This document shows positions 31,987-38,375 of a stretch of DNA of 64,000 nucleotides, piece after piece. Position numbers and translations under genes: made by a program. The notes beneath the pieces are model-generated. The model saw only the letters and a program-made list of their open reading frames with translations. It searched no databases and was not told where the DNA came from. Location: assembly GCA_948144175.1 (NCBI GenBank), contig CANXME010002073.1, positions 62,001-126,000 of the forward strand, read 5' to 3'. Numbering within the stretch: the first letter of the stretch is position 1; each line of letters opens with the position of its first letter. The DNA is from Closterium sp. NIES-65. Its lineage: Eukaryota; Streptophyta; Zygnematophyceae; Desmidiales; Closteriaceae.

Positions 31987-34900
31987 ATGCTCTTTCCTGG
32001 CGGGCTCATGCGCGTGGGTGGCCGCCACCTGCGCGGCAGCAAGCTGCTGCCGCTGCTGCAACGCCGCCTCGCGCTCGCCGTGGGGACGAACCGCTTCAGC
32101 CGCCAGGTGGTGGCGCTGGCGGCGGTGCTGTGCGCGCTGCTGGCGCTGAACGTGCTCTTCTACCTCTTCGGCGGCATCTCCATCGAGTTTGTCACCGACG
32201 ACCCGCTCCCCGACCTCCCCTCGCTCTGGCGCGGCGACGCGCAGCCGCCCCCGCGCGGGCGGCAGTGCGCGGCGTGGCTGGCGGAGGTGGACCCCACGGG
32301 CGCGGGGAGCGAGCAGCGCGACTGGCAGCGCCAGCCCGTGGTGGTGGCGGCGGGGGAGAACAGGCGCGTGCAGGGCTGCGCCGTCGGCTGCCTCTTCACG
32401 CGCGCTCCTCGTGAGCCCCTTTAGTCTCTCCACCCATCCTGACCCCTCTTCACCGTCGTGAGCGCTCTTCACCCTTGCATGATGACTCTGAGTTACAACA
32501 CCGCAAGTTCAGGCAGCTGAAAGAAAATCCGGGCATGGGAACGAAATCCTGGAAAACGCCGAGATGGGGGAGGGGAGCGTTGAGAGAGAGGGGGCGGTGG
32601 AGAGAGGAGGATGGGGGGGATGGGGGAGGTTGCGGGACGGAGGGTAGGGGGTGATAATTTCCAGGTTTTTCTTTAAATGCTATATCACAATTACACAGTT
32701 GAGATCTATCATCAACTCCAGCATTATAGAATACCCAGCCAGCCTCCTAATTTGGTTGTACCCTCTCCCCTCTCAACTCGCTCCTCTCGCCTCTCCCCTC
32801 CTCTTTTCTCTCCTCTCCGCTCTCTTTTCTCTCCTCTCCCCTCTCTTTTCTCTCCTCTCCCCTCTCTTTTCTCTCCTCTCCCTTCTCTTTTCTCTCCTCT
32901 CCCCTCTCTTTTCTCTCCTCTCCCCTCTCTTTTCTCTCCTCTCCCCTCTTCCCTCGCCCCTCTCCCTTCGCCCCACTTCAAACTCACCTCTCCCATCGCC
33001 CCTCTCCCCCATCCCTCCTCCCCTCCCCCCTCCCTTCTCCCTCTCCTCTCTCCCCTCTCCCCCTTCCCCTCTCCCCTCTCCCCTCTCCCCTCTCCCCTCG
33101 CCCCTTTCCCATCTCCCCTCTCCCCCTTCCCCTCTCCCATCCCCCCTTTCCCCTCTCTCCTCTCCCCCTTTCCCCTCTCCCCTCTCCCCCTCTCCCCTCT
33201 CCCCCTTTCCCCTCTCCCCTCTCCCCCTTCCCCTCCCCCCTCTCCCCCCCTCCCCCCTCCCCCTCCCCCCCTCCCCGCCCAGCGGACCACGACACCTGCA
33301 ATGCGCCGTGACAAGCAGAGCAGCGGCAGCTCCGATGTGCCCCATTTCAAACTCCACTCTTGCCTCCCCGCCCTCCTTTTTCCTCTACCCCTCGCCACTC
33401 AGCAGACCACCGCACATGCGATGCCGCTGTGGTAGCGAGGGAGGGGGGACGGGGTGCCCTGACAAGGAGCCTCCTCACCTCCGACCCCATGTGACCCTCT
33501 TCAAACTCAGCCTCCCCCCTCCCCTCGCCCCTCCCCTTTCCTCTCCCCTCTCCCCGCTCAGCGGACCATGACGCCTGCGATGCCGCTGTGGTAGCCTCGC
33601 CAGCACCAGGAGCAGGGGAGGCGGGCACTGGAGCAGAGGAGGGGGAAGGGGAAGGGTCAGCAGCGCCACCGGGGGTGGCAGAGGAGGGGGCGGCGGCGTG
33701 TGGGTACGCGGTGGTGTGGCAGCGCGGGCCCAGGGGCGCCGTGGTGATGCCCAACGCATCTAGAGTGGTGGCCATGACCAGCAGCCTCAGCTCGGATGTC
33801 CCCCTTGGTACGTCCCATGTCGTCATGGCCCTTGGTCCGTCCCATGTCGTCATGGCCCTTGGTACGTCCCATGTCGTCATGGCACTTGGTGCGTCCATTT
33901 GATTGATACGCCCCCCTTGGTGCGTGCCGTACCATGTGCCCCTTGGTATGCCCCACGTCGTACCATGTGCCCCTTGGTATGTCCCATTTTGTGCCATGTC
34001 GTGCCGTGTGCCATGGGTAGGCGCTAATGCTGTGTTGTGCCTGGTGATGCACTGTGTGCTTCTGGCCAGGATGCCATGTAATTTTGACGCATGTGACATG
34101 CCATGTGCACGTTGCGTGTCAGTGTATCATGACTGCTCACTCAACTCTCCTTGCATGTGCTGCTGTGTGGCATGTCATGGAATGGAATGCAATGGGCTGG
34201 CATGGGTTGTTATGGCGTGGCTTGGTATGGCAGCATGGCATGGCATGGCATGGCACGGTATGGCATGGCATGGGCTGTTATGGCATGGCATAGCACGGCA
34301 TGGCATGGTGTGACATGGCACGACATGGCACGGCATGGCATGACATGGCACGGCATGGTGGTGTGGCATGGCACGACATGGCACGGCATGGCATGGCATG
34401 GCACGGCACGCACGACACGGCACGACATGGCATGGCATGGCATGGCACGGCATGGCATGGCATGGCATGGCATGGCTCGGCATGGCATGGCACGGCACGG
34501 CATGGCATGGCATGGCACGACATGGCATGCAGGGCAGCCATCATGGAGGGACCATGCGTTTATGGATCCGCCCACTCCCAAGCATGCGTCGCGTGCCATT
34601 GTGGCCGTGCTCACCAACCCCTGCTCCAGCCTGCAACTCAAGTCAGCCCCACCACTCCCATTGCACCCCTTTCCTGCCGCTGCCTGCCTGCATCGTTTCA
34701 TCTGTTCATCTTCTCTGCCTGCTTCAATGCTGGATGGGTGATGTTACTCTCAAGCATGTGCTCTTCCTTGTTCATCTCCAATCCCCCCTCATTTCCCAAT
34801 CCCCCCTCATTTCCCAATCATCCCCTCCCGCTCTACCCCCTTTTTTTTCTCTCCTGCCAACCCATTCAAACGCAACCGCTCCACAAGCCACTCACTTGCC

Positions 34901-37900
34901 GCCGGCCCTTGCGGCAGCCAGGCTGGACTTCATAGCACAGGTGGAGTGCCAGGGCTTGCCCGTGCAGCTGGTCGACCCCTGCCTGCCCGCCGTCCACCCC
35001 GGCCTTCTCCCTTGCAATCCCCCCCTCCCTTCCCTTCCAATCCCCCCCTCCTTTCCATTCCGCCCCTCCCTTGCCATCCGCCCCGCCCTTGCAATCCCCC
35101 CGCCACCCAAAGCCAGGCTGGACTTCATAGCACAGGTGGAGCGGCAGGGTGTGGCCGTGCAGGCACTGGGCCCCTGCCTGCCCGCCTCTGACCCCGGCCA
35201 CGCCTCGCCGGCAGTGCTGCAGCGGCGGCTGTGCGACCACCGCTTTGCGCTGCTGTTTGAGGAGCTGGCGCCGCTGCACGTCATGTCGCCACACTTCTGG
35301 GCTGCGCTGGCGTGCGGCACCGTGCCCCTCGTGGTGGCCAAGGGCAGCATCGCGCTCTTCTCCCCCGCTGACAACGCCTTCCTGCAGGTGCTTGGTGCTG
35401 CACGCATGAACAGTGTTGCAATCCGTGCTGCACTTGCCGTACCCGTGACTTGGTGCCGTCCCTTATCACTCGGTGAAGCGTATCAATCCTTTCCATTCTT
35501 CGTCGCTGCTAGCCAGTCTTTTTTTTTTGTTTGTTTTATTTTTTTTCTGTTTCTTGCTTCGGAGATGAATGCGAGTTTTACTTTCCTCCCACCCCTCCCT
35601 CTCTCCCTCCCTCCCTCCCTCCCTCCCTCCCTCCCTCCCTGACACCCCTGCCCACCTATACGGCCGACCAGGTGGGGCGGGGGGACGAGGTGCGGCAGGT
35701 GGGGGAGTGGGCGGGGTATCTGCAGCAGTCACAGCGGGCCTACAGCGACATGACGCGCTGGAAGGCCGACGTGCCCTCCGATGCCTTCCTCGCCCTCCTC
35801 GACCTCTCCATCGTCCCGCCGCGCTGCCGCCTCTGCATCCACCTCGCCACCAAGGTGTGTCCACCTCGCCACCAAGGTGTGTCCACCTCGCCACCAAGGT
35901 GTGTCCACGTCGCCACCAAGGTATGTCCACGTCGCCGTCAAGGTGTGTCCTCCTTGCCACCAAGGTGTGTCCACTTTACCAAGGTGTGTCCACGTCGCCA
36001 CCAAGGTGTGTCCACCTCGCCACCAAGGTGTGTCTACGTCGCCACCAAGGTGTGTCCACGTCGCCACCAAGGTGTGTCCACCTCGCCACCAAGGTGTGTC
36101 CACGTCGCCACCAACGTGTGTCCACGTCGCCACCAACGTGTGTCCACGTCGCCACCAAGGTGTGTCCACGTCGCCACCAAGGTGTGTCCACGTCGCCACC
36201 AAGGTATGTCCATGTCGCCACCAAGGTGTGTCCACGTCGCCACCAAGGTGTGTCCACGTCGCCACCAAGGTGTGTCCACGTCGCCACCAAGGTGTGTCCA
36301 CGTCGCCACCAAGGTCTGTCCACGTCGCCACCAAGGTGTGTCCACGTTGCCACCAAGGTGTGTCCACGTCGCCACCAAGGTGTGTCCACGTCGCCACCAA
36401 GGTGTGTCCACGTCGCCACCAAGGTGTGTCCACGTCGCCACCAAGGTGTGTCCACGTCGCCACCAAGGTGTGTCCACGTCGCCACCAAGGTATGTCCACG
36501 TCGCCACCAAGGTATGTCCACGTCGCCACCAAGGTGTGTCCACGTCGCCACCAAGGTGTGTCCACGTCGCCACCAAGGTGTGTCCACGTCGCCACCAAGG
36601 TGTGTCCACGTCGCCACCAAGGTGTGTCCACGTCGCCACCAAGGTGTGTCCACCTCGCCACCAAGGTGTGTCCGTACTTCTTAGGACCCAACATAATCAT
36701 GAAGTTACGCGTAACGTATATCGCACTCGTACACATGAGCAAAAATTGGCTGGACAAGGAAAAATATGCATCCTTGCATGATTTTTGTTGCAAGTGAACG
36801 GAGCTGTTGTGTGAAGGTTCAACTTTGAGCAGCAAAACAAAAAAATCCCTGCCCTCTAACGTAAACCCATTTTAAGGGAGAGAAAGTAATGTACGACGTA
36901 AAACGCACATAAACGTACGATCCAACTGATGTCTCTTGCCACACATTGCTGCCATTGTCATTCGTTGCCACACGTTGGATGTGGATGTTGTGCACGCGTT
37001 ATGCCGCCTTTCTGTGAAGGAAACACCGGTCATCCTTCTGTGTTTTTTCCCATTGTGCTGTCTTCTCTGTCGCTCTGCTGTTAGCCATGCAGCCCCAAAT
37101 GTCTTCTCAAACTCACTGATGTGAACCTGTTTCCTCAATTAATTATTGGCATCGTGGCAATGGCATGGCATTGGGCACATGGCATGGGGCACATGGCATT
37201 GGGCACATGGCACTGGGCACATGGCATTGGGCACATGGCATTGGGCACATGGCATTGGGCACATGGCATTGGGCACATGGCATTGGGCACATGGCATTGG
37301 GCACATGGCATTGGGCACATGGCATTGGGCACATGGCATTGGGCACATGGCATTGGGCACATGGCATTGGGCACATGGCATTGGGCACATGGCATTGGGC
37401 ACATGGCATTGAGCGCATGGCATTGAGCACGTGGCTTCCCGCACGTGAATGGCAGCAACTGGTGGCGTGGGATGAGAGCAGCACGCGGAAGGTGTGTCGG
37501 TGCTGGGAGGAGGGCACCAACACCACCCTCTACCACCTCTACGTGCGCGAGCGCGGCACCTTCGCCTTCCACTCCCTCTTCCTCAAGTAAGCTCCACCAT
37601 CCCCACCATCCCCACCATCCCCACTGTCTCCACCATCCCCTCTCGCATGGATCGCCAGTGTCTTTCTCAAGCACACAGCCTTAAGGACCCTCACGGGCAC
37701 ATGAGCATCGTAGCTCATACAGTGAGCGTGCATGCATGCCGGCATTCATCAGACACAGAGCGTGCATAGAACCATCTCACATAACCTCGAAGGGGACGAC
37801 CTCTTTAGCTGGGCATCTCGTATGTGCCCTTCTCCTTCCTTATTGAATGCTCATTCTCCTCTTTCCCTCTTCCCCCCCACCCACCGTTCACTCCCCTCCC

Positions 37901-38375
37901 CCCCCCCACCCGTTCCCCCCCCCTCCCCCTTCCCCCTCCGCACTCCCTCCACCCCCGTGCAGGTCATCAGACCTCACCACGGCTCACCTACATGGGTTAC
38001 AAGCGCTCGCCATCTACCGCCTCTACCACCGTATGGGTCCCCCCCCTTCACCCCCCCACTCCTTCCACCCCCCTCCCCCACCTCCTCCCACCCGCCACCC
38101 CTCTGCACAGGTCATCGGAGCTCACCATGGCGCACCTAGTGCGGGCCATCTACCGCCTCTACCACCGCCTCGACTACCGCCCGCTCTGGCACGGCCACCG
38201 CCCCGACGCGCTGTCCGCAGGCGGGGCGGCAGCGGTGCGTGTGCTGCGCGTGTACCCGGTGGAGTCATCCCAGGAGATGGTGCTGCACGGGTCGGGGGCC
38301 TTCCGCCGCGACCGCCAGCTGCAAGATTTTGTGGAAGCCACTCCGTGCCCGCGCCTGGAAGTGATCCTCGTGTGA
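31987..38375 (+). CDS. Plant-type core alpha-1,3-fucosyltransferase (GT10, FUT11/FucTA-like), seven exons
   Basis: Known family role: Golgi transfer of fucose from GDP-fucose to the innermost GlcNAc of N-glycans. Inferred exons: 31987-32410, 33562-33807, 34533-34641, 35117-35387, 35672-35854, 37456-37586, 38111-38375. All have GT/AG borders, all phases agree, and the total is 542 codons plus TGA (plant homologues are about 500-515). Residues about 41-62 form a single membrane anchor after a short basic N-terminus (type II topology). Homology is clear at GCAVGC (130-135), SSLSSDVP (215-222), DPPTPKHASRAI in exon 3, GTVPLVV (327-333), C402-RL-C405, YVRERG in exon 6 and the C-terminus CPRLEVILV. 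The GT10 signature is altered: FEELAPLHVMSPH stands where plants have FEN...DYVTEK, so catalysis is uncertain. Five introns carry duplicated exon edges. No neighbouring host gene is seen. Confidence 0.85.
32759..33280 (+). repeat. Pyrimidine tract in intron 1
   Basis: More than 500 bp of almost pure C/T on the plus strand, built from CTCTCCCCTCTCTTTTCTCT and CCCCTCTCC units. Long open frames on either strand are repeat-encoded (Ser/Pro/Leu or Gly/Glu/Arg). Intron 1 spans 32411-33561. Confidence 0.85.
33281..33561 (+). repeat. Extra copies of the exon 2 acceptor in intron 1
   Basis: Sequences like the true exon 2 start (CAG then CGGACCATGACGCCTGCGA at 33562) occur at 33283 (CGGACCACGACACCTGCAA) and 33403 (CAGACCACCGCACATGCGA), each after CAG and a pyrimidine tract. 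The copies are 120 and 159 bp apart. Joined in phase to exon 1, the first copy meets a stop after about 10 codons and the second after about 30. Only the third stays open, which supports 33562 as the exon start. Confidence 0.7.
33803..34010 (+). repeat. Tandem copies of the exon 2 donor in intron 2 (27-bp unit)
   Basis: Exon 2 ends ...CCCCTTG at 33807, followed by GTACGT. The unit CCTTGGTACGTCCCATGTCG plus 7 bases repeats with CTTG/GT at 33807, 33834, 33861 and 33888. Looser copies with CCCCTTGGTRYG follow to about 34000. Each copy regenerates a plausible 5' splice site. Confidence 0.75.
34168..34531 (+). repeat. Pentanucleotide (TGGCA)n array ending at the exon 3 acceptor
   Basis: Degenerate (TGGCA)n, also read as CATGG, fills the last 360 bp of intron 2. 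It runs to within a few bases of the acceptor (GCATGCAG before 34533). There is no pyrimidine tract before this acceptor. Several open frames across the array on both strands reflect only the repeat. Confidence 0.85.
34922..35116 (+). other. Duplicate 5' part of exon 4 (exon 4A)
   Basis: After CCAG at 34918-34921 the sequence encodes LDFIAQVECQGLPVQLVDPC, nearly the same as the start of exon 4 at 35117 (LDFIAQVERQGVAVQALGPC). The two copies are 195 bp (65 codons) apart and the space between is open in the same frame. The exon could therefore begin at either acceptor and stay in frame. The intervening part is CCCTTCCAATCCCCCCTC-like repeat, so use of 35117 gives the more family-like protein. 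Confidence 0.7.
35855..36673 (+). repeat. 22-bp minisatellite made of the exon 5 donor (37 copies) in intron 5
   Basis: Exon 5 ends TCCACCTCGCCACCAAG at 35854. The unit GTGTGTCCACSTCGCCACCAAG plus variants then repeats 37 times to 36665 (one unit is 3 bp short), followed by a partial GTGTGTCC. Every unit therefore holds the exon's last 17 bases and the start of the intron, a fresh 5' splice site each time. Two units read AAC before the GT and a few have GTATGT. Because 22 is not a multiple of 3 and the unit has no stop, all six frames are open through the array, with a 22-residue period. Confidence 0.92.
37154..37435 (+). repeat. 14-bp minisatellite near the end of intron 5
   Basis: About 18-20 copies of GGCATTGGGCACAT, with a few variants at both ends, finish about 20 bp before the inferred exon 6 acceptor (AATGGCAG, exon from 37456). 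As in intron 2, the array is built on ATGGCA and takes the place of a pyrimidine tract. It is open in several frames with a 14-residue period. Confidence 0.85.
37963..38030 (+). other. Duplicate start of exon 7 (exon 7A) in intron 6
   Basis: After GTGCAG the sequence reads in the exon 6 phase SSDLTTAHLHGLQALAIYRL, then YHR and GTATGG. It is a close copy of the true exon 7 start at 38111 (SSELTMAHLVRAIYRLYHR). Both copies follow C/T-rich tracts. If 7A were spliced to 7B the phase would be wrong, so 7A is probably skipped or is a decoy. Confidence 0.65.

Follow-up and report, generated by a model that had tools for sequence, protein, structure and literature searches.

A 22-bp variable-number tandem repeat straddling an exon-intron border in a putative fucosyltransferase gene of Closterium, and copies of exon borders in other genes of the same genome

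In a stretch of 64,000 nucleotides (nt) from the desmid Closterium sp. NIES-65 (GenBank assembly GCA_948144175.1, contig CANXME010002073.1, positions 62,001 to 126,000 of the forward strand; hereafter the window), a gene that by similarity belongs to the GT10 fucosyltransferases carries the border between its fifth exon and fifth intron, 5' splice site included, 38 times in tandem. The array is shown to be a variable-number tandem repeat (VNTR) of a 22-base-pair (bp) segment that straddles this border, itself placed by homology, and 38 such copies are not a product of chance. The account we favour, with a probability of about two in three, is that the border of this gene was duplicated and the duplicate expanded, that the first donor makes the normal protein, and that the other donors are decoys.

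The borders of the host gene were set by homology together with GT/AG sites, and its seven exons join in this gene model into an open frame of 542 residues:

31987..32410, forward strand: exon 1, with a hydrophobic N-terminal stretch that suggests a type II membrane protein
33562..33807, forward strand: exon 2
34533..34641, forward strand: exon 3
35117..35387, forward strand: exon 4, with Glyco_transf_10 sequence
35672..35854, forward strand: exon 5, of 61 codons and in phase 0 at either end, ending in CIHLATK and colinear with the paralogue L022 and with PDB entry 9s6a
37456..37586, forward strand: exon 6
38111..38375, forward strand: exon 7, with the stop codon

The 542-residue protein matches PF00852 (Glyco_transf_10) with E 1.4e-9 and 38.3 bits, passing the cut-off of 23.9, and its residues 211-542 match 9s6a_A, a solved glycoprotein 3-alpha-L-fucosyltransferase A, with E 4.9e-59; residues 93-156 match 9s6a_A weakly. 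By similarity the gene is a putative GT10 fucosyltransferase of the core alpha-1,3 kind. The array begins within the last bases of its fifth exon:

35838..36673, forward strand: minisatellite with a 22-bp unit spanning the exon 5/intron 5 border; of its 38 donor copies the first is the exon end by homology

Tandem Repeats Finder, run on the window, gives the same limits (35838-36673) with a period of 22, 38.1 copies, 95% matches and a score of 1490. A preliminary description of this DNA, made from its letters, had proposed a minisatellite seeded on the exon 5 donor, with units of 17 exon bases and the first intron bases, 38 donor-like GT sites in register and one unit 3 bp short. Homology places the exon end where that description had put it, and a direct count returns 38 donor-bearing units (first base of GT from 35855 to 36666); of the 37 steps between them, 36 measure 22 bp and one 19 bp. 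Each unit consists of 17 exon bases (TCCACSTCGCCACCAAG) followed by the five intron bases GTGTG; the junction reads AAG/GT in 36 of the 38 units and AAC/GT in the remaining two, and the third intron base is A in four donors and C in one.

We searched the genome of 874 megabases in 2400 contigs, among which the window lies on contig C1775, and found a second copy of the region on the opposite strand of contig C1745, where colinear blocks with identities of about 93-99% are interrupted by unmatched stretches and retroelement-like repeats. There the array has 29 donors, AAG/GT in every one, in a unit order different from that on C1775, and a second array, at the end of exon 2, has 5.5 copies as against 3.5 on C1775. 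The seven exons, by contrast, match over their full length, gap-free, at 98-100% identity. Because the second copy of the region has 29 donors and yet gap-free exons, the array is real and length-variable, and both arrays behave as length-variable repeats beside conserved exons. Most of the glycosyltransferase and chaperonin matches discussed below also fall in contig pairs, each pair being alleles or duplicated segments.

When both copies of the region are pooled, and one aberrant unit is excluded, the GT is constant across 66 units. Since 12 of the 22 columns of the unit are equally constant in the pooled set, this is by itself no proof of selection on the donor, and GT conservation as a sign of function is not decisive. 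The preliminary description had also pointed to the lack of stops in any frame, and for the three frames of the forward strand this is correct in the array of either region copy (on the reverse strand the stops by frame number 0/2/1 and 0/1/0 in the two array copies). As an argument it fails: 22 leaves a remainder of one on division by three, so that the three forward frames read one 22-residue string and constitute a single test, and 51% of shuffled 22-mers are stop-free as well, which rules out stop-freeness as a sign of coding.

As to which donor ends exon 5, the paralogue L022, from the same genome, lacks an intron at the exon 5/6 junction. The protein made by way of donor 1 crosses the junction against L022 with a one-residue gap, followed by a four-residue gap past the next conserved CRC; against 9s6a the junction runs through, 9s6a having two extra residues shortly after. 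Because L022 and 9s6a align straight across the donor-1 junction, they suggest that exon 5 ancestrally ended at donor 1 and that the normal protein would be made from this donor. Predicted U1 pairing of the array donor is -5.7, second best among the six donors of the gene (-6.8 to -1.0), and is -5.7 or better at 35 of the 38 array sites, donor 1 included. The reading frame is kept by 13 of the 38 donors in the window copy and by 10 of the 29 in the second; these are the 1st, 4th, 7th and so on, rather than the 3rd and 6th as had been supposed, although the supposed step of 22 residues is right. In neither region copy is the frame kept by the last donor. Use of the 4th donor would insert VCPPRHQGVSTSPPRCVHVATK. 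Among ten donors tabled, the four that shift to the +1 frame meet a stop 111 nt ahead of the final junction; for the two that shift to the +2 frame, translation ends in the last exon.

Other borders of the same gene have been copied too, at a second donor and at two acceptors (a third acceptor by eye), and two further arrays adjoin acceptors:

33802..33896, forward strand: array seeded on the donor at the exon 2 end (CCCTTG/GTACGT), 27-bp units, 3.5 copies
33928..33989, forward strand: 31-bp pair carrying CCCCTTG/GTATG, 71% identical to 33790-33820 and related to the exon 2 donor
33268..33436, forward strand: the exon 2 acceptor with about 35 exon bases, copied twice (at 33268 and 33388) upstream of the real one at 33547
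34916..35004, forward strand: copy, 89 nt long, of the exon 4 acceptor and the start of that exon, with 83% identity to 35111-35199
38002..38031, forward strand: partial copy of exon 7, 30 nt at 90% (real sequence at 38138-38167), its reach back to the acceptor judged by eye
37164..37435, forward strand: array of a 14-bp unit (CATGGCATTGGGCA) in 19.4 copies, stopping 20 bases short of exon 6
34168..34529, forward strand: 5-bp TGGCA array reaching the exon 3 acceptor

The 14-bp and 5-bp arrays occupy the sites before the exon 6 and exon 3 acceptors where a pyrimidine tract would be expected.

Elsewhere in the genome, copies in six other genes adjoin their exon and mostly share an edge with it. 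They were sought among GT10, chaperonin and kinesin genes, the protein-profile search being blind to copies as short as the 22-bp unit. In the GT10 survey (10 other groups, 13 loci, one contig per group), border copies are clear in three of the 10 groups and a weak 36-nt copy is present in one, all on the same strand as the exon. One of these loci, L024, has two donor-side copies 3' of the exon, at steps of 210 and 220 bp, and a further fragment; in another, L026 (reverse strand, 2150-2940), the acceptor and about 90 exon bases occur five times in a row with the real exon last, the last three copies being spaced at 146 bp and the first two being degraded. The upstream copies of L026 end in CTCGAGTGA, a stop in the frame of the exon, and the arrangement is the mirror image of the donor array. 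The chaperonin profile gave at least 93 matches in at least 11 genes (grouped from 22 contig-strands; these figures are lower bounds), and a partial exon is repeated beside itself in at least three of the 11, all three sharing a profile edge. At the DNA level, on one contig each, these are a donor copy of 122 nt at 97%, GTGAG included, and two acceptor copies, of 159 nt at 91% and of about 246 nt at 83%. The donor copy is that at L053 (reverse strand, 203-324 and 427-548), where the last 117 nt of a chaperonin exon and GTGAG are duplicated into the intron; it is a donor repeat at the two-copy stage. The kinesin profile gave 135 matches on 57 contig-strands, with four same-strand overlaps: three share an edge, two of them probably from one gene pair, and one, of 15 positions, does not. 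Kinesin exon fragments also occur in inverted pairs about 100 bases apart or less on three contigs (C511, C1725 and C1052), and these pairs are unexplained by tandem duplication. Full-length matches to rbcL of equal score and in both orientations occur on single contigs (C75, C97, C162, C824, C1848 and C2174); these repeats look like concatenated plastid DNA in the assembly. The presence of rbcL, whose best PDB match is 9chz, marks the organism as photosynthetic, and both rbcL and the fucosyltransferase have a streptophyte look; a pattern for the 18S end had 0 matches.

The ratio of nonsynonymous to synonymous rates (dN/dS) between copy and exon is 0.17 over 411 codons in 11 rows, compared with a mean of 0.47 (standard deviation 0.09) under neutral simulation, in which none of 300 runs was as low; the gapped copy of exon 7 of the window gene (17 codons, 4.0 synonymous and 4.0 nonsynonymous differences) is excluded. 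We do not lean on this value, because five of the 11 rows were found as protein-profile matches and three more lie in the same genes, so that the rows favour copies that are still protein-like, and because several rows come from one gene. For the three rows from the window gene, which were detected purely at the DNA level, the ratio is about 0.6. Stops do not discriminate, one being observed in the copies where 3.0 are expected, with 58 of 300 simulated runs as low. A partial chaperonin exon copy at L054 (46-204 and 268-426) is striking in differing from its exon by 14 synonymous changes and one nonsynonymous, as if it were coding now or had been recently.

Multi-donor minisatellites are of a kind already known. 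In the human interferon-induced gene 6-16 (IFI6) there is a minisatellite with a unit of 12 bp and about 26 copies. It reportedly provides multiple splice donors, a finding that Turri, Cuin and Porter are said to have made in 1995. That work on the 6-16 minisatellite donors is cited in PMC4526556, PMC2572611 and PMC3618361, the first of which states that downstream repeat units serve as donors, giving three mRNA species. The Closterium array resembles the human one in that its units hold 5' splice-site-like sequence, the first being the exon end by homology, and in that its copy number varies (38 versus 29). It differs in its 22-bp unit, which is not a multiple of three, in its 38 or 29 copies, in belonging to an unrelated gene of a photosynthetic organism, and in being known from DNA alone. 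Human UBC, as described by Duan et al. 2024 (PMC10809524), has a dual-specific AGGT splice-site array that is stochastically spliced. Here too the array is tandem, and AGGT, which in the UBC units could be donor or acceptor (PMC10809524), is found in 36 of the 38 Closterium units and in 29 of 29 in the second copy, the two remaining units having ACGT. In UBC, however, the units are coding and the intron both starts and finishes within the array, its length a whole number of units (PMC10809524), whereas the main Closterium acceptor at 37456 lies outside the Closterium array. Given 6-16 and UBC (PMC10809524), the claim of the preliminary description that a donor minisatellite of this sort was undescribed does not hold. 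A further comparison is with intron gain by tandem genomic duplication, of which PMC4974935 gives an example: there, as here, duplication of gene sequence yields duplicated splice sites. The Closterium intron is not bounded by two copies, donors having been added while the acceptor is elsewhere, and because that acceptor lies outside the array, 783 bases past it, intron gain of this type is ruled out. Of border-anchored arrays recurring across the genes of one genome we found no description among the matches listed in the open-licence literature, which is weak evidence of absence. What is new, as far as these sequences indicate, is that the donor array is not isolated: partial exon copies anchored on the border, some of them arrays, accompany other borders and other genes.

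In proposing how such arrays arise, we start from the likelihood that a tandem duplication within an exon would usually be harmful and one within an intron mostly free of consequence, while a duplication across the border would leave one intact exon end adjoining the exon body and would escape the selection that purges duplications within exons. Border copies may thus be the survivors of a generally high rate of duplication. A 22-bp unit straddling the border could then expand as minisatellites in general do, through slippage or unequal exchange. Acting at other borders too, where repeat distances range from 22 to about 270 bp, this process would leave partial exon copies beside the exons of several genes. 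The 37 further donors of the array would be largely equal decoys; now and then one might be used, and the mRNA would then grow by about 22 nt for each step, in a 22-nt ladder. The frame-keeping third would add some multiple of about 22 residues between CIHLATK and QLVAWD, and the rest would shift the frame. In a wider and more tentative version, which we think possible rather than probable, tandem duplication of exon borders would be systematic throughout the genome, at donors and acceptors alike and over 22 to about 270 bp, sometimes growing into arrays, so that introns gain reserve splice sites and partial exons, some of them constrained as coding sequence and used, with the 38-donor array as the extreme.

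Several points weigh against this account. Our choice of donor is inferred from DNA. Splicing often favours the intron-proximal member of a pair of equally strong donors; in this array the last donor holds that position, and it is out of frame, so that signals on the exon side would need to favour donor 1. Local folding offers no help, all 38 donors being predicted as paired (unpaired probability 0 to 0.033) with no advantage to the first; RNA structure as the selector of donor 1 is ruled out by this near-zero accessibility, and any preference for donor 1 would, again, need to stem from the exon side. At the sensitivity used, eight of the 11 chaperonin genes and six of the 10 other GT10 groups have no border copy, and the kinesins show few. 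Moreover, some border overlaps are to be expected because repeats are dense (184 partly overlapping tandem-repeat rows in the 64-kilobase window), and the border counts are raw, without a genome-wide null.

That repeat density is also an argument for an ordinary intronic minisatellite that touches the exon by accident, its overlap having no further meaning, and the 14-bp and 5-bp arrays adjoining acceptors of the same gene point the same way. We consider such an accident improbable, given that 17 bases of the unit are coding exon sequence, that a second donor and two acceptors of this gene have been copied as well, and that the copies in the six other genes adjoin their exon and mostly share its edge. 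A further alternative makes the array a generator of isoforms, with the normal mRNA drawing on several donors, like that of human 6-16 or UBC, and yielding a ladder of n x 22 extra residues in the C-terminal part of the protein. The retention of AAG/GT in 36 of 38 and 29 of 29 units, the in-frame donors (13 of 38 and 10 of 29), the stop-free forward strand and the precedents in PMC4526556 and PMC10809524 are all consistent with this. Yet two thirds of the donors break the frame, the unit length is no multiple of three, the lack of stops is expected by chance, neither L022 nor 9s6a has an insert at the junction, and the two region copies differ in copy number (38 and 29); on balance we regard an isoform generator as unlikely, if less so than an accidental overlap.

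The open stretch from 35513 to 36781 in the frame of exon 5 would allow the exon to extend through part or all of the array, making the repeats coding. Homology with L022 and 9s6a is colinear without an insert, the two region copies differ by nine units and neither keeps the frame at its last donor, all of which makes coding repeats very improbable. Long near-identical repeats are hard to assemble, and the array might for that reason be suspected as an artefact; its presence on two contigs, with different lengths and unit orders, within colinear blocks of about 93-99% identity, reduces that suspicion almost to nothing. A border-straddling VNTR, with donor 1 as the probable source of the normal protein, remains the reading we prefer.

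Several genes of this genome have exon edges duplicated into their introns, and the 38-donor array is an extreme instance. With 38 (and, in the second copy, 29) near-identical donors before one acceptor, it constitutes a natural test of how the spliceosome chooses among equal 5' splice sites, one that comes with a 22-nt ruler and in which the reading frame serves as a built-in readout. Should tandem duplication anchored on borders prove common here, the genome would offer a live view of alternative splice sites and partial exons as they arise.
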